A stretch of DNA of 64,000 bases from the NCBI RefSeq assembly GCF_003610635.1, contig NZ_RAQJ01000004.1:1-64000 (forward strand), given 5' to 3'. The notes under the pieces are model-generated. The model saw only the letters and a list, made by a program, of their open reading frames with translations, made no database searches and had not been told where the DNA came from. Position 1 is the first letter of the stretch; the number at the start of each line of letters is the position of its first letter. This document shows positions 27,374 to 36,992 of the stretch, in pieces. Origin of the DNA: Ichthyenterobacterium magnum. Its GTDB lineage: Bacteria > Bacteroidota > Bacteroidia > Flavobacteriales > Flavobacteriaceae. A program made the position numbers and the translations under genes.

Positions 27374-28078
27374 ATGAAAAGCCTTTACTTAATATTAAAT
27401 TTTGGTTCTTTATTAATTCCTTTTTTGTTTAGCTTTCATCCTAAACTTAAATTTTATAGATACTGGAAAGCTTTGTTTCTTTCAATTATAATAAGTTCCA
27501 TTCTATTCATTTCTTGGGATATTATTTTTACCCTTAATGGCATTTGGGGTTTTAATAGTGACTATTTTATAGGAACAAAATTATTATCATTACCTATAGA
27601 AGAATGGTTGTTTTTTATTTGTATCCCTTACGCTTGTGTATTTACACATTATGCATTACTTCATTATTTTCCAAATCTAGGTTTGCGGCCAAAAAACTCA
27701 ACAATAATAACCCACATTATAATAGCAATACTACTTTTACTAAGCTTTATATATTATGATAAATGGTATACACTTGTCAATTTTATTGTAACAATAATAA
27801 CATTGCTATTAGTAAGACTATTTAATAGTTCTATTTTACACAGTTACTATCTTACATTTTTAGTGATGCTTATTCCTTTTTTTATAGTTAATGGTATTTT
27901 AACTGGGAGTTTTATAGATAACGAAATTGTATGGTATAACAATAACGAGAATTTGAACCTTCGCTTATTTACAATACCTATTGAGGATACTGTTTATGCT
28001 TTTTCACTTATTTTAATAAATTTAGCACTTACAGACTTTTTCTATAAAAGGTTTTCAAAACAGAAGCTTGTCAATTAA
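27374..28078 (+). CDS. Lycopene beta-cyclase, fused CrtYc-CrtYd type
   Basis: Cyclises both ends of lycopene to beta-carotene. 234 residues, about seven membrane helices, made of two tandem lycopene-cyclase domains, each with the family motif: PIEEW near residue 75 and PIEDT near residue 210. This is the CrtYcd form rather than the FAD-dependent CrtY. It lies 71 bases after crtZ, and its 3' end overlaps the convergent thioredoxin-like gene by 24 bases. The last step before CrtZ acts. Confidence 0.88.
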   Translation: MKSLYLILNFGSLLIPFLFSFHPKLKFYRYWKALFLSIIISSILFISWDIIFTLNGIWGFNSDYFIGTKLLSLPIEEWLFFICIPYACVFTHYALLHYFPNLGLRPKNSTIITHIIIAILLLLSFIYYDKWYTLVNFIVTIITLLLVRLFNSSILHSYYLTFLVMLIPFFIVNGILTGSFIDNEIVWYNNNENLNLRLFTIPIEDTVYAFSLILINLALTDFFYKRFSKQKLVN

Positions 28079-28612
28079 GCTTCTAACTTCATCACTATTC
28101 CAATTTGCTGCACCATTCTTATCAATTACAATAGTTCCCTCTTTATCAATTAAAAATGTTCTTGGAATACTCGAAATAGTTAATTTTTCTGGATAAATAC
28201 TAAGTGAAATATAAGTCTCTAGTTCATACCCTTTTCTATCTAAAAACTTCTGAATAGTTTCTCTCTTTTCATTAGATACAATAACAAACTCGACTTTATC
28301 ATTATAATCATTATACAATTCTTGAATTTGAGGTAACTCTGCAATGCAAGGCGGACACCAAGTTGCCCAAAAATTCAAAAAGACAACCTTGCCTTCTAAG
28401 TTTTTAAAATTGATACGTTTTCCATCTAGGCTCTTTAATTCCCAATTAGAAAAAGTGATTTTATCTTTAAGCTCACTTTTTATAGATGGACTAAACATTG
28501 CCAATCCTTTATGAATAAAAACCTGAATAGGTAATCGTGTTTGAGGTATTAATAAAAGTGCAATAACTATTAAAAAAATAATATTACTGCGTTTCATTTT
28601 TTTTAATTTCAT
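28055..28612 (-). CDS. TlpA/ResA-like thioredoxin-fold protein
   Basis: 185 residues. An uncleaved or cleaved N-terminal hydrophobic segment (about 9-26) places the thioredoxin domain in the periplasm. Active site WCPPC in FLNFWATWCPPCIAELP; cis-proline loop SSIPRTFLID. Likely reduces disulfides or delivers reductant for cytochrome maturation, as TlpA/ResA do. ATG 28597 (MKRSN) is an alternative start. Its 3' end overlaps crtY. Confidence 0.86.
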   Translation of the reverse strand: MKLKKMKRSNIIFLIVIALLLIPQTRLPIQVFIHKGLAMFSPSIKSELKDKITFSNWELKSLDGKRINFKNLEGKVVFLNFWATWCPPCIAELPQIQELYNDYNDKVEFVIVSNEKRETIQKFLDRKGYELETYISLSIYPEKLTISSIPRTFLIDKEGTIVIDKNGAANWNSDEVRSLIDKLLF

Positions 28613-30411: not shown

Positions 30412-32679
30412 TTATGCGTTTTCTTTCTTTATTAGATTTAATGCAGAGCCTTCATTATACCAATCTATCTGTGATTGATTATAAGTATGATTTAACATGA
30501 TAGTATCTTTGCTTCCATCTGCATGAACAGTTTCTAATGTTAACTGTTTTCCTGGAGCAAACTCATTTAAATCTACAAAGTTGAATGTATCATCTTCTTG
30601 TATTAAATCGTAATCACTTTCATTAGCAAAAGTTAATCCTAACATTCCTTGTTTTTTTAGGTTTGTTTCATGTATTCTAGCAAACGATTTTACAATTACA
30701 GCTGCTACACCTAAATGTCTTGGTTCCATTGCTGCATGCTCTCTAGACGATCCTTCTCCGTAATTATGATCACCAACAACGACTGTTCTAACGCCTGCAG
30801 CTTTATATGCTCTTGCTGTATCTGGAACGCCTCCAAATTCACCTGTTAACTGGTTCTTTACAAAGTTTGTTTTCTTACCAAATGCATTTACGGCTCCAAT
30901 TAAACAGTTATTAGAAATGTTATCTAAATGTCCTCTAAAACGTAACCATGGACCAGCCATAGAGATATGATCAGTAGTACATTTACCAAAAGCTTTAATT
31001 AATAGTTTAGCTCCAGAGATTGTATTTCCAATTGGTTTAAATGGTGTTAAAAGTTGTAATCTTTCTGAAGTTGGGCTTACAGAAACATCAACACCGCTTC
31101 CATCTGCAACTGGCTCAATATATCCATTGTCCTTTACATCAAATCCTTTTGGTGGTAATTCCCATCCTGTTGGCTCATCAAACATAACTTCTTGACCATC
31201 TTCATTGATTAATTTATCTTTTAAAGGATTAAAATCTAAACGTCCAGCTATTGCTATTGCTGCTGTTATTTCTGGTGAAGCAACAAAAGCATGTGTATTA
31301 GGGTTACCATCGGCACGTTTTGCAAAGTTTCTATTAAATGAATGCACTATACTATTTTTTGGTGCATTTTTAGGGTCATTATATCTTGCCCATTGCCCAA
31401 TACATGGTCCACAAGCATTTGTAAATATTTTTGCATCTAAATTCTCAAACACTTCAAGAATACCATCACGCTCAGCTGTGTATCGTACTTGCTCTGATCC
31501 TGGATTAATTCCTAATTCAGCTTTCATTTTCAAACCTTTATCTAAAGCTTGTTGCGCAATAGAAGATGCTCTTGATAAATCTTCGTAAGACGAGTTAGTA
31601 CATGAACCTATTAATCCCCATTCTACTTGAACAGGCCAATCATTGGTTTTTGCTCTTTCAGTCATTTCACTACCAACTTGTGTTGATAAATCTGGAGTAA
31701 AAGGGCCATTTAATAATGGTCCTAATTCTGATAAGTTAATTTCAATAACTTGATCAAAATATTGCTCTGGATTAGCATAAACCTCTGCATCTCCTGTTAA
31801 ATAATCTTTAACTTGGTTTGCAGCATCTGCAACGTCAGCTCTATCTGTTGCACGTAAGTAACGCTCCATAGATTCATCATAACCAAATGTTGATGTAGTA
31901 GCTCCAATTTCTGCTCCCATATTACAGATGGTTCCTTTTCCAGTACATGACATTGCTGTAGCTCCAGGTCCAAAATATTCTACTATGGCTCCAGTTCCTC
32001 CTTTAGCAGAAACAATTCCGGCAACTTTTAAAATTACATCTTTTGGTGCAGTCCAACCAGATAACTTACCTGTTAATTTTACACCTATTAGTTTAGGGAA
32101 TTTTAGTTCCCAAGCCATTCCTGCCATAACATCTACAGCATCTGCGCCACCAACACCTATGGCAACCATTCCTAAACCGCCGGCATTTACTGTATGAGAA
32201 TCTGTACCAATCATCATTCCTCCAGGGAACGCATAATTTTCTAATACTACTTGATGAATAATTCCTGCTCCTGGTTTCCAGAAACCAATTCCGTATTTAT
32301 TTGAAACCGATTCTAAAAAATCAAACACTTCGCTACTTACATCGTTTGCACGTTTTAAATCTTGAGAAGCGCCTTGTTTTGCTTGAATTAAGTGATCACA
32401 ATGTACTGTTGTAGGAACTGCAACTTTGCTTTTTCCTGCTTGCATGAATTGTAATAAAGCCATTTGAGCTGTTGCATCTTGACAAGCAATTCTGTCTGGT
32501 GCAAAATCGACATAATCTTTTCCTCGTATAAATGCTTTATTAGGATTTCCATCCCAAAGGTGAGCATATAAAATCTTTTCAGAAAGCGTTAGTGGTTTAC
32601 CTACAATATCACGTGCTTTATCTACACGTTCTACCATAGTTGAATACACTTTTTTTATCATGTCTATGTCAAAAGCCAT
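30412..32679 (-). CDS. Aconitate hydratase
   Basis: TCA-cycle enzyme isomerising citrate and isocitrate. 755 residues, the length and order of the mitochondrial-type aconitase. Fe-S ligands are present in GSCTNSS (about 360) and [10 protein letters not shown] (about 420). Also seen: [28 protein letters not shown] and the swivel domain [15 protein letters not shown]. Monocistronic with promoter box and terminator. Confidence 0.96.
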
Positions 32680-33060: not shown

Positions 33061-34209
33061 ATGAAATATAAAGCGTTAAAATATTCATTTTTTACAATAC
33101 TAATACTTATAATTATTGGTGGTATTTATTATTTTAACCTATCTAACAGACACAAAGCGATAGTTAAAAAACATATTTATCACAAGCTTGCTTTAGTAGA
33201 TAACACTTGGAACATTTCAACCCAAGATAGTCACATTTCATTAATTTCTCCTACTTTGATAATAGATAATATCTACAAATCTATGGAAGGTCCGCAAGCT
33301 ATAAGCCCTTTTCAAGTAGATAACTCTAAAGATGAGTTAATATGGCTTACCTCTTTTAAGACTCAAGTTTTAGACACCAATGAAACCAATCAACTTTCCA
33401 ACGATTTTATTTGTCATACCAATATTAATATTTACGATGGCGAACATTATTCGCGTTGGAATCTTAATCACAGAATTGGTGAACAATACCCAAGATTAAC
33501 ATCTCTAAGTAATGGTCTGGAATCTTTTAAGTTTCCTAATGGGTTTGGATACCCTGTATTTAGTAATGAAAATTTATTTTTAACTACTCAAACCCTAAAT
33601 CATAATATTAAATCTGACGCATTTTCAGTCAAACACAAAGTAAATATTGGTTTTCAACCACACAATATTTCAATGAAACCATTAATGAGTAAAAACTGTT
33701 TTGTGATGTTGCCTTATGATTCTAACAACCCATTTAAAGGTCCTACAGAAGCAAATCCAAATATGTGTTTACCTATTGAAATAAAAAACCATAGTTACAA
33801 AAACAGTAATGGTGAAAGCTTATCTGGACATTGGGTAATATTTCCTGGCAAGGCCACATACAGTTCTAATATTACACACCAATTACAACTCAAGGATAGC
33901 ACAAGCATGCATCAAATTATTACACATTTGCATCCTTTTGCCGAATCGCTAGCTTTTAGAGATAAAACTATAGACTCCACAATATTTATATCTAAAGCAG
34001 AAAATCATAAAGACAGAATAGGTTTAAAAAACATTCCTGTGTTTTCAAGTGAAAAAGGTATCATGTTATATGCTAATCATGAATACGAATTGGTGTTAAA
34101 TACTAACAATACAAGCGGCACGAATCAAGATATGATGGCAAGTATATTTGTGTTTTTATACGACAAAGAAATGGATGAGAAGTTAAATACATATAACGCC
34201 AACCTATAA
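33061..34209 (+). CDS. Membrane-anchored protein with PHM-like copper ligand pattern
   Basis: 382 residues, not assigned to a named family from reading. One N-terminal membrane helix (about 9-26), the rest outside the cytoplasm. The C-terminal half contains H289-L-H291 (IITHLHPFAESLAFRD), then 67-68 residues later M358-M359 in TSGTNQDMMASIFVFLYD. This mirrors the CuM site of peptidylglycine monooxygenase (HxH, then Met about 70 residues on, in a DEMC-like strand). C118-H119 in FICHTNINIYD could belong to a first copper site. One base before a SCO1 copper chaperone gene, consistent with a copper protein. Activity is inference. Confidence 0.6.
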   Translation: MKYKALKYSFFTILILIIIGGIYYFNLSNRHKAIVKKHIYHKLALVDNTWNISTQDSHISLISPTLIIDNIYKSMEGPQAISPFQVDNSKDELIWLTSFKTQVLDTNETNQLSNDFICHTNINIYDGEHYSRWNLNHRIGEQYPRLTSLSNGLESFKFPNGFGYPVFSNENLFLTTQTLNHNIKSDAFSVKHKVNIGFQPHNISMKPLMSKNCFVMLPYDSNNPFKGPTEANPNMCLPIEIKNHSYKNSNGESLSGHWVIFPGKATYSSNITHQLQLKDSTSMHQIITHLHPFAESLAFRDKTIDSTIFISKAENHKDRIGLKNIPVFSSEKGIMLYANHEYELVLNTNNTSGTNQDMMASIFVFLYDKEMDEKLNTYNANL

Positions 34210-34797
34210 ATGAAACGCTTTACATTTTTTCTTTTTGTTCTATTAATTGGTTGTAATAACACCAAAGAACTTCCAATTTTAAGTTATAAGATAAATGACT
34301 TGGGCGAAAGAGAAAACTACACAATTACTTATAAGGGTTTTGAAAACCAATTAGGCGAATCATTTTCAACCGAAACAATAAAAGACAAAATATTTATTGC
34401 CAATTTCTTTTTTACTAAGTGCCCAAGTATTTGTCCGCCAATGAAAGCACAGCTTGCTGCTATTGCAGATGCATTTAAAAACGATTCAGACTTTGTTATC
34501 ATCTCTCATACTATCGACCCAAAACATGATACTAGTGTTACACTTAAAGGTTATGCTGAAACTACTGGAATAAAAGCTCAAAAATGGCAGTTTGTTAGGT
34601 CGTCTGAAGAAAATACGCGCCTACAAGCCAATCAATTTATGACCAATTTTAAACCCAATGAAGATGGTACCGATTTCTATCATAGCAGTTATGTAGCATT
34701 GGTTGACAAAAACCAAATGATAAGAGGTTTTTATAATATTTTAGCAAATGAAGATGTTGCGCGGTTAAAAAGGGATATCTCCAATCTTTTATCGTGA
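34210..34797 (+). CDS. SCO1/SenC family copper chaperone lipoprotein
   Basis: 195 residues. Lipoprotein signal ending LIGC (about 15). Copper ligands CPSIC (C71, C75) and H158 (DFYHSSYVAL) are intact in a thioredoxin fold. SCO proteins supply copper to the CuA centre of cytochrome oxidase; here it follows the PHM-like protein by zero gap, and no oxidase gene is nearby, so it may metallate that neighbour. The 3' end overlaps the convergent acyltransferase gene by 9 bases. Confidence 0.9.
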   Translation: MKRFTFFLFVLLIGCNNTKELPILSYKINDLGERENYTITYKGFENQLGESFSTETIKDKIFIANFFFTKCPSICPPMKAQLAAIADAFKNDSDFVIISHTIDPKHDTSVTLKGYAETTGIKAQKWQFVRSSEENTRLQANQFMTNFKPNEDGTDFYHSSYVALVDKNQMIRGFYNILANEDVARLKRDISNLLS

Positions 34798-35910
34798 ATA
34801 TTTTTTATCTCTAAACTTTAAAATTGGTTGTTCAAACCATCTGTAAATCAATTCAGAGATCAGTAAAGTCGTTATTAAATATCCAATTAATGCGAAACAT
34901 TTTTGAAATACAGAAAACTGTTCTATTTCAAAAAAATGCTGAAACGTTAATAGTACCAATGAGTAGTTAACCAAATAAATAGTATAAGAACGCGTGCTTA
35001 TAAAATACACTAAAGGTTGCCAAATACCTTTGTAATTAAGACTAGAAAAATAAGGAAACATTAGCCCCAAACTTAAAATTAGTACTTGCAAATAAAACAA
35101 CGTATAGAACATAAGATGTGTTTCAGGCATAATTTTAAACCAAAAAATGGCTATGTGCAAAAGACCAAATAAAGCAATCCCTAATAACAATAAATACGTT
35201 TTGCACTTAGCAACCCAGTTAGGGAATTGTTTTGAGACATATATTAGCAAAAAGCCATAGTAAATACTATCTAATCTATAAACTACAACTTTTCTAAATG
35301 TTAAACTCCATGTCTTATAACTAGTAACATCAGTAGTTAAACCATAGTATAACTTAAGCCCAAACAAAACTACTATTGTTACAAGTGTTACAATTAAAAA
35401 CAGTTTTTTGGGTTTTACTTTTTTAAATACGGTAAAACTACAATACATTAAAAATGGTAGTATTAAATATGCATATTCTTCAATAGAAAGACTCCAAGCT
35501 TCAGTAAAAAAATCTGGATGTTGTGTCACAAAATTTTGCAAAAAAGGAACATATAACCATATATCGCTAACTAATCCTTTCCCAAGAGCTGATAAGAGTA
35601 AAACGTTAAGTATTAAAACCAAAAAATAGTTTGGCAGTGTACGAAGCCATCTACGTTTCCAAAACACAAAAAGGTCTTTAAACTTTGTTTTGTTAGAAGC
35701 AATTTGCTTGAGTAATATGCCACCAATTAAATAACCACTAAGTACAAAGAATAAGTCTACACCAACAGCACCAAAAAGGCGTATCACATCTAAAACAATA
35801 GAAGTAGTATTAGGAAACAACAAAAAAGTACAATGAGAAATCACGACTAAGCTAATTGCTATTGCGCGCAATAGGTCTAAACCAAATAATCTAGAAAGCT
35901 TAGTTGTCAT
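34789..35910 (-). CDS. Acyltransferase 3 family membrane protein
   Basis: 373 residues, about ten membrane helices. Family signature LGLDLLRAIAISLVVISHC with the catalytic-type histidine and later DLFFVLSGYLIGG. Such proteins O-acetylate surface sugars such as O-antigen or exopolysaccharide. It overlaps the ATG of the HTTM-like gene's stop by one base, so they form an operon. Substrate unknown. Confidence 0.9.
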   Translation of the reverse strand: MTTKLSRLFGLDLLRAIAISLVVISHCTFLLFPNTTSIVLDVIRLFGAVGVDLFFVLSGYLIGGILLKQIASNKTKFKDLFVFWKRRWLRTLPNYFLVLILNVLLLSALGKGLVSDIWLYVPFLQNFVTQHPDFFTEAWSLSIEEYAYLILPFLMYCSFTVFKKVKPKKLFLIVTLVTIVVLFGLKLYYGLTTDVTSYKTWSLTFRKVVVYRLDSIYYGFLLIYVSKQFPNWVAKCKTYLLLLGIALFGLLHIAIFWFKIMPETHLMFYTLFYLQVLILSLGLMFPYFSSLNYKGIWQPLVYFISTRSYTIYLVNYSLVLLTFQHFFEIEQFSVFQKCFALIGYLITTLLISELIYRWFEQPILKFRDKKYSR

Positions 35911-36992
35911 TAATAAAATTCTAAATATGTATTAGGTGCATCAAGATAGCCATTAATATGTTTTTGTATGTTTCTGTATACTCTTTCTTCAGGATATACT
36001 AACAAACCTATGGTTCTTCCAGACCATTCATTTAAATCTATATAATATTTACCTTGGTCATTTCTAACGTTATAACGTATATGACTTGGTAAGGCTTCAA
36101 TATCTTTATTTGCAGAGAAATAAACTTTGCAATACTTGGGTTTACCAGAAAAATAACTAAATGCTAATATGTGATCATATAATCCGAAAAAATTAAAAAA
36201 AGGAAAAATTATGGCAATCAAAAAAAACAATACAGCTTTAGGGTGTTTTAAGCTGAATAATTCTTTAGGCGAAAATGATTTGTTATAAAACAAATAGAAT
36301 AACACAAACACATTAAATAGCGTCATCGGGAATACCACATAGCCATAACCTTCAATAAGGAATGTAGTGAGAATAATAGCATGCATAATAGTTATAAGCC
36401 AAATCCCAAATTTTCTTGTTTTGGTAAACACTAAAAAAACACCAAATGAAGCTTCTAAAAATGGTACTGCATACGTAAATGTGAGTCGCATCCATGAAGG
36501 CACAAACGGAATACGTTTAGTAAGTCCGTTAGCCCATTTTTCAAAAAACACAGTATTGCACTTATGCATTCCGCTCCAAAAATAAGTACCAACCAATATT
36601 AAAAGTATACATTGCTTAGCTACTTTTGGATTTTCTCGAAACATGGTAAGTGCCAAAACCATAAATATAATTTCAAAATAAAAAGGCTGAATTCTGTTTT
36701 GGTCTAGCAATACCCAAAACACATATATAAGTACAATTGGTAGCCCAAACTTCCAACTAGGTTTAAATACAAATATTATAAAGCTTACTAAAAAAATTAA
36801 AATCAATGCAATATCTACACTTAAACTTGGTATTGGTAAGTTTTCAAAAACGGAAACCAAAGGAAATAATCGCTCAGAAATCCAAACTCTAGGAGAAATA
36901 ATTAATGGTATTAAAAATGCAAAAAATGCAAAAAGCCTTACCCAAAACAGCTTGTCTCCTTTAAAAGGTTTTAGAGTAACATTAGTATTCAT
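35910..36992 (-). CDS. HTTM-like integral membrane protein
   Basis: 360 residues, about nine membrane helices and a soluble C-terminal tail (about 275-360). The segment YFWSGMHKCN resembles the YxWSGxxK motif of HTTM/DoxX-like (vitamin K gamma-carboxylase-related) bacterial proteins. Function is unknown. Coupled to the downstream acyltransferase by a one-base overlap, which suggests a shared envelope role. Confidence 0.65.
   Translation of the reverse strand: MNTNVTLKPFKGDKLFWVRLFAFFAFLIPLIISPRVWISERLFPLVSVFENLPIPSLSVDIALILIFLVSFIIFVFKPSWKFGLPIVLIYVFWVLLDQNRIQPFYFEIIFMVLALTMFRENPKVAKQCILLILVGTYFWSGMHKCNTVFFEKWANGLTKRIPFVPSWMRLTFTYAVPFLEASFGVFLVFTKTRKFGIWLITIMHAIILTTFLIEGYGYVVFPMTLFNVFVLFYLFYNKSFSPKELFSLKHPKAVLFFLIAIIFPFFNFFGLYDHILAFSYFSGKPKYCKVYFSANKDIEALPSHIRYNVRNDQGKYYIDLNEWSGRTIGLLVYPEERVYRNIQKHINGYLDAPNTYLEFY

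Follow-up and report, generated by a model that had tools for sequence, protein, structure and literature searches.

Background

Peptidylglycine alpha-hydroxylating monooxygenase (PHM) and DBM are the textbook two-copper enzymes, for which it is debated whether the two coppers stay separated or approach each other in catalysis. The CuM ligands of PHM, H242, H244 and M314, are spaced by 70 residues (H244 to M314) and 72 residues (H242 to M314). The second site, CuH, is needed for catalysis in PHM; it is formed by H107, H108 and H172, and a full CuH triad is also present in the core of DBH. The substrate carboxylate of PHM is held by R240, N316 and Y318. Closed structures of a single-copper mutant and of DBH feed the debate about copper distance, and one paper describes 6ala_C and 4zel_A as closed conformers, a single copper being bound by the CuM ligands together with H107, as in the H108A mutant of PHM (PMC6123673). 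PNGase F and PHM belong to one Pfam clan according to the relevant section of another paper (PMC8812541), and a table in a review of metalloproteomes appears to place PHM on the eukaryotic side (PMC7435645). As for the SCO proteins, the known clients discussed in one account are heme-copper oxidases (PMC6696091).

Here we describe a gene pair of Ichthyenterobacterium magnum in which the gene for a protein predicted to have the PHM fold, provided with the residues of a CuM-type site but devoid of the CuH triad, is directly followed by a gene for a SCO1/SenC-type protein. The window that we analysed is a stretch of 64,000 nucleotides from the genome of this bacterium, a Flavobacteriaceae-type draft of 3.0 Mb; all the coordinates below refer to it unless another locus is named.

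A gene pair and its family

The two genes form a single unit (Table 1), the ATG of the SCO gene coming directly after the stop codon of the gene upstream (34209/34210), as the initial annotation, which noted that there was no gap between them, had correctly seen. At E<=0.001, searches of Pfam, NCBIfam and the sequences of the PDB give nothing for the 382-aa product of the upstream gene. Profiles A1 and A5 of its family likewise give nothing significant against PDB sequences (best E 0.4), and the plasmid records searched for the family contain no match; these absences hold for the libraries searched (Pfam, NCBIfam, PDB and plasmid records). Neither PF01082 nor PF03712 is listed for the 382-aa protein, for the 28 A5 members or for 10 of the 20 distant members. 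Two faint matches were discarded, one of the 382-aa protein to AVR-Pik_HID, which we attribute to chance (12.9 bits against a cut-off of 27), the other of one A5 member to TIGR02906 (E 0.0014), a lone match for which support from the fold is absent. The open-licence literature yielded neither a description of this family nor one of a PHM-like protein linked to SCO, which is weak evidence of novelty.

Homologues are nonetheless available for comparison. Our scan of GTDB contigs recovered 27 loci, nearly all assigned to Flavobacteriaceae, Flavobacteriales or Bacteroidota/Bacteroidia, with one Algicola MAG. The protein is present in 23 of the 299 genomes sampled in the family. Among 395 genomes of the phylum, a search with the single protein finds 3 carriers; profile A1, apart from a single chance match, also finds 3 among the 296 sampled from the order, and the wider profile A5 finds 18 among 355 from the class, of which 16 lie outside Flavobacteriaceae. 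A weak match at the level of the order (L038, E 0.007) covers only 183 bases of DNA that appears to encode unrelated genes, and was rejected. In what follows we speak of 44 non-redundant near members (8 duplicates having been dropped) and of 20 distant loci; identity to the 382-aa protein is 39-70% in 42 of the near members and 23-36% in the 20 distant ones, and the joint alignment comprises 63 members, the partial near member L030 being left out. To judge from its predicted N-terminal helix, the protein is likely to be exported and anchored in the membrane.

Table 1. Position in the window of the two genes, of their conserved residues and of the flanking genes
Feature	Position	Strand	Remarks
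Aconitase gene	30412-32679	-	Flanks the gene pair on one side
Gene for PHM-fold protein, probable copper protein	33061..34209	+	382 aa, likely membrane-anchored; first gene of the pair; ORF, model, fold match, homologues
N-terminal helix, residues 2-25, likely membrane or signal anchor	33064..33135	+	DSSP of the model; hydrophobic by inspection
C118-H119, in the strand carrying PHM H107-H108 (CuH)	33412..33417	+	C 62/63, H 62/63
Q177, at the likely place of PHM H172 (CuH) by ungapped profile alignment	33589..33591	+	Q 58/63, R 5/63
H181	33601..33603	+	Invariant in the near family only: 44/44 near, 12/20 distant
C236, in a stretch between the jelly rolls that PHM lacks	33766..33768	+	C 63/63
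H257-W258, entry of the second jelly roll	33829..33834	+	H 62/63, W 63/63
H289-x-H291, putative CuM-type ligands (PHM H242/H244)	33925..33933	+	Conservation; aligned with HxH of Cu2_monoox_C
M359, putative CuM-type Met (PHM M314)	34135..34137	+	Conservation
Gene for SCO1/SenC-type copper chaperone or thiol reductase	34210..34797	+	195 aa; PF02630, clade, motifs
SCO C71-P-S-I-C75 copper motif	34420..34434	+	28/28 linked SCOs
SCO H158, third copper ligand	34681..34683	+	28/28 linked SCOs
Acyltransferase-3 family gene	34789..35910	-	PF01757, E 3.2e-28; flanks the gene pair on the other side

The predicted fold is that of PHM and DBH

The AlphaFold2 model of the PHM-like protein, obtained from an input of 27 sequences, has a pLDDT of 89.8 and a pTM of 0.85, and the double jelly roll of the PHM catalytic core is present in it (residues ~52-375). 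When this model is compared with the PDB by Foldseek, PHM and DBH fill rows 1 to 28 (best E 6.4e-9). With VIA-align, the best match is the PHM conformer 6ala_C (Z 17.5, 240 residues, 3.2 A), DBH 4zel_A is aligned over 248 residues at 3.6 A (Z 16.6), and PHM or DBH occupies each of the first 26 rows, after which PNGase F follows, from 9.1, as the next family. The resemblance to PHM and DBM that had been suggested from the sequence is thus borne out at the level of the predicted structure. PNGase F shares the double jelly roll (Z 8-9), but it is a glycosidase without copper, and its match to the fold is much weaker. The two top rows are thus the closed conformers 6ala_C and 4zel_A, and the match to the open structure 1phm (4.8 A, Z 14.5) is poorer; the angle between the C-terminal and N-terminal subdomains being that of a predicted model, this is weak evidence that the PHM-like protein adopts a closed shape.

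Within this common fold, identity to PHM is only ~10-12%, and the protein differs from PHM (6ALA, 1PHM), as it does from DBH, by the loss of the CuH histidine triad, by an additional stretch between the two domains that contains C236, and by its N-terminal anchor.

Homology with bacterial Cu2_monoox_C proteins

Bacteria also possess proteins of the Cu2_monoox_C family (PF03712). Of 296 genomes sampled from the phylum, 34 encode them (with 25 passing the cut-off); that of I. magnum does not. Thirty of these proteins were taken, of which 28, without L061 and L062, were aligned in two sets called A2 (15 proteins) and A3 (13 proteins); no protein of either set departs from the six copper ligands (15/15 and 13/13). 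Comparison of the untrimmed profiles gave a weak signal (P 0.047 for A1 with A2, P 0.018 for A1 with A3), which increased when the N-terminal domain was trimmed and members were added: the hhalign score between 43 near members and the 30 trimmed cores is 42.3 (P 5e-5), for at most 32.0 in 100 column shuffles and 16.9 with the reversed profile, and between all 63 members and the 30 cores it is 57.0 (probability 92.6, P 4.6e-7), for at most 21.8 in 100 column shuffles and 19.0 in reverse. The 20 distant members, taken alone against the same cores, score 54.5. Since trimming was chosen after the weak result, it is the shuffled controls, made on the same trimmed alignments, that should be weighed here. 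In the profile alignment HLHP faces HMHL, and the last Met motif comes close to DEM, the pairing of the Met varying between alignments.

We therefore consider it supported by profile comparison that the PHM-like family is a distant homologue of the PHM/DBM group, with sequence homology to bacterial Cu2_monoox_C and the HxH...M motif in register with theirs. It is nevertheless a family separate from Cu2_monoox_C: it matches no Pfam model, and the Cu2_monoox_C proteins keep the six copper ligands (28/28 aligned), have an N-terminal CxxCH or C...CH motif and have no SCO gene nearby (0/20 loci, up to ~6 kb on each side, less at contig ends). By its probable mode of action, too, it would stand with the PHM/DBM group, but the CuH histidines that help to define this group are absent and neither of the two Pfam models matches. 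The N-terminal motifs just mentioned belong to the Cu2_monoox_C proteins of other Bacteroidota (L040-L069, e.g. L040:571-2106 on the + strand), in the form C-x-x-C-H in A2 and C...C-x-x-x-x-C-H in A3, and from their sequence suggest that a complete PHM core has been joined to a c-type haem domain.

Conserved residues of a probable CuM-type site and the loss of the CuH histidines

The initial annotation had drawn attention to H289-x-H291 and to a methionine pair placed 67 and 68 residues after H291, and proposed that they reproduce the CuM spacing of PHM. Both H289-x-H291 and D357-M358-M359 are indeed found at these places. The distances, 68 residues from H291 to M359 and 70 from H289 to M359, are close to, without being identical with, the 70 and 72 of PHM. 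Conservation was as expected for three of the four residues singled out (H289 63/63, H291 62/63 with one X, M359 63/63), to which P292 can be added (63/63), and fell short for M358 (51/63). The latter is replaced by Ala in the 12 other members, so that M359 is likely the CuM ligand. A His-x-His and Met site of the CuM type is thus indicated both by conservation and by the alignment with the HxH of Cu2_monoox_C, and from these residues and the predicted fold we hold it highly probable that copper is bound at H289, H291 and M359. In the columns that align with PHM R240, N316 and Y318, no conserved counterpart is seen: the family has A/G/T (column 287), S/V/T (361) and F/L/Y/A (363), the assignment of these columns depending on an alignment of ~11% identity.

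The situation is completely different for CuH. In none of the 63 members is there an HH pair at 115-123 or a His at 172-178: the CuH triad is gone, and the idea of a full dicopper enzyme of the PHM type is not sustained. Several other residues are nearly invariant instead, namely C118-H119, C236 and H257-W258 (Table 1), together with N121 (62), R145 (62) and N180 (63). No cysteines other than C118 and C236 are conserved across the whole alignment, the second of these lying in an insertion whose extent, approximately residues 219-256, was judged by eye from the alignments. H181, H192 and H244 are invariant in the 44 near members and variable in the distant ones. In the distant member L192 (4782-5978, + strand), C118 and H119 are replaced by Gly-Arg, C236, H257 and the CuM-type residues being kept.

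The correspondence between these residues and the CuH ligands of PHM can be proposed with varying assurance. In the part of the profile alignment concerned, which is of low confidence, C118-H119 falls on H107-H108 with a gap of one residue, and if read without gap H119 falls on H107. H181, being invariant in the near family, was considered as the heir of PHM H172 but is disfavoured, as it is present in only 12 of the 20 distant members and the ungapped profile alignment sets Q177 there. This register of Q177 with H172 is likely, although the rows obtained with a model of the fragment 46-184 (pLDDT 77), for which Foldseek gives no E below 0.001, disagree by up to five residues: residue 184 falls on PHM 179 in 5 rows, on PHM 181 in 12 and on DBH 340 in 1, and residue 183 falls on 183 in 3. 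In no row of the fragment model does residue 184 fall on PHM 175, as would be needed for H181 to correspond to H172. A side branch of the family (L136, L137, L138, L139 and L088) has Arg at position 177; in L136, L137 and L139, the three of the five whose neighbours were listed, ParA/ParB-like genes adjoin, without SCO.

The probable SCO partner

The downstream gene encodes a protein of the SCO1/SenC family (PF02630, E 1.8e-19, 70.5 bits for a cut-off of 22.8) with a lipoprotein-like N-terminus (C15) and the usual CxxxC and His. A SCO gene is adjacent and on the same strand at 28 of the 44 near loci, absent at 15, and one locus lies at a contig end (hence 28 of 43 testable). C15, C71, C75 and H158 are kept in all 28 linked SCOs, and C71, C75 and H158 also in the 17 other SCOs with which these were compared. 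The linked proteins nevertheless form a separate clade (28/28, support 0.75, against the 17 others), and in our sample of 299 genomes they are found only beside the PHM-fold gene: a SCO scoring at least 161 bits against that of I. magnum occurs in 15 genomes, in each of which it comes immediately after the PHM-like gene; the next match is at 114 bits. When presence of SCO is mapped on the tree of the PHM-like proteins, 5 changes are needed, compared to a mean of 12.0 after shuffling. From all this it appears probable to us that this SCO clade is dedicated to the PHM-like protein.

The dependence is not reciprocal. The co-occurrence with SCO1 that had been expected across genomes stands if one starts from the SCO (15/15 genomes) and fails if one starts from the PHM-like gene, SCO being absent in 8 of the 23 positive genomes of the 299-genome sample, at 15 of 43 near loci and at all 20 distant loci (~5-6 kb on each side, less at contig ends), which means that it is not required by the fold. 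Other SCO paralogues are present in these genomes and might serve the PHM-like protein.

A conserved chromosomal location

In the near family, 38 of 44 loci have an acyltransferase-3 gene at most 1.2 kb away from the PHM-like gene, in one position or the other; of the six remaining loci, five lie elsewhere in the genome and one leaves no room for it. For comparison, we took the DNA beside MoxR in eight genomes without a PHM-like match. Aconitase is present there in six of them, with no PHM-like or SCO gene near aconitase-MoxR in any of the six, and with an acyltransferase between aconitase and MoxR in one. The PHM-like gene, SCO and usually the acyltransferase thus look like a cassette between aconitase and MoxR. 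Its presence at one locus indicates that the adjacency of the two genes has been inherited rather than formed many times, and consequently the loci should not be counted as independent events.

Some neighbours deserve mention. The acyltransferase is adjoined by a gene for a MauE-type domain protein (35910-36992, - strand; PF07291, E 1.3e-7), and at L130 a 360-aa protein resembling the latter adjoins the PHM-like gene itself. A TlpA-like thioredoxin (WCPPC) is encoded ~4.4 kb away from the PHM-like gene, at 28055-28612 on the - strand; in the section of a paper that concerns Bradyrhizobium, TlpA is presented as the reductant of ScoI and of COX II (PMC6696091). The claim that no oxidase is nearby is correct for COX1, whose four matches are all on another contig (C1, the pair being on C4), and is limited to this subunit, since COX1 was the only oxidase subunit searched. 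Beside the distant members, no partner gene recurred in the 8 of 20 neighbourhoods inspected by eye.

What the PHM-like protein might do

On balance, we lean towards the view that the PHM-like protein is a membrane-anchored copper redox protein facing the periplasm, in which a CuM-type site is combined with a second site that has been rewired, and to which a SCO is dedicated, and that it is probably an oxygenase, this last point, considered for itself, having in our opinion an even chance. One copper would be held at the H289/H291/M359 site of the double jelly roll, and CuH would be replaced by an arrangement around C118, H119, C236 and H257. The SCO of the neighbouring clade would load the copper or reduce the cysteines, as may be deduced from its exclusive adjacency in our sample and its intact CxxxC...H motif. 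The oxidation of a substrate of the envelope, dependent on O2, would be the outcome, and is the weakest of the steps that we infer.

Two versions of the second site can be imagined. C118 and C236 may form a disulfide accompanied by one histidine, the protein being then a single-copper protein in closed shape, like the H108A mutant of PHM, or C118, H119, C236 and H257 may themselves bind copper at a thiolate site. The latter recalls CuA, where two Cys bridge two coppers, with two His and a Met or carbonyl as further ligands. An account of CuA sites, in the portion of a paper devoted to them, likewise names two Cys, two His and weakly bound axial ligands, and has SCO proteins serve these sites (PMC6696091). 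That CuH has been exchanged for such a thiolate, perhaps CuA-like, copper site, metallated by the dedicated SCO in the manner of CuA, seems to us quite doubtful; if it were true, the protein would be a two-site copper oxygenase combining an intact CuM with a sulfur-based electron relay.

The same pair of cysteines has inspired the idea that the SCO is mainly a thiol reductase (or disulfide shuffler) for C118 and C236, copper being delivered from elsewhere. These are the only two conserved cysteines (62/63 and 63/63), and SCO or SCO-like proteins are discussed, in the corresponding passages of a paper, in two roles, that of copper chaperone and that of thiol reductase for the CuA cysteines (PMC6696091), but the third copper ligand H158 is kept in 28/28 linked SCOs and the distant L192 has C236 without C118 and H119, so that we regard this role as decidedly improbable. 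A copper store, carrier or sensor, in which Cu(I) is kept at the CuM-type site, with no chemistry on oxygen, and copper is exchanged between this site and SCO, would account for the loss of CuH, the electron-storage site, for the SCO neighbour and for the lack of a conserved redox partner gene in the 8 of 20 distant neighbourhoods listed. One would expect, however, many Met, Cys and His ligands in such a protein, where those conserved amount to about one or two sites, and both domains of the PHM double jelly roll have been retained in full; we find this explanation unlikely.

Two more extreme possibilities can be opposed to each other. An ordinary two-copper enzyme of the PHM/DBM type would have the fold and the CuM motif observed here, but hardly without the CuH His-His and third His, absent in 63/63 members when the Cu2_monoox_C proteins keep all six ligands (15/15 and 13/13), and it appears very improbable. 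That the protein has lost its metal function and kept a structural or binding role has a precedent in the double jelly rolls of PNGase F, which is without copper, and of viral capsid proteins, as listed in part of a paper on this fold (PMC8812541), but seems just as hard to believe, given the near-perfect retention of H289, H291 and M359 down to 23% identity and the adjacent SCO.

Conclusion

The family described here would extend PHM-like copper proteins into bacteria, and would provide SCO with a client other than a heme-copper oxidase. As a natural family with CuM, without the histidines of CuH and predicted to be closed, it would also be a ready test case for the debate about the distance between the two coppers.
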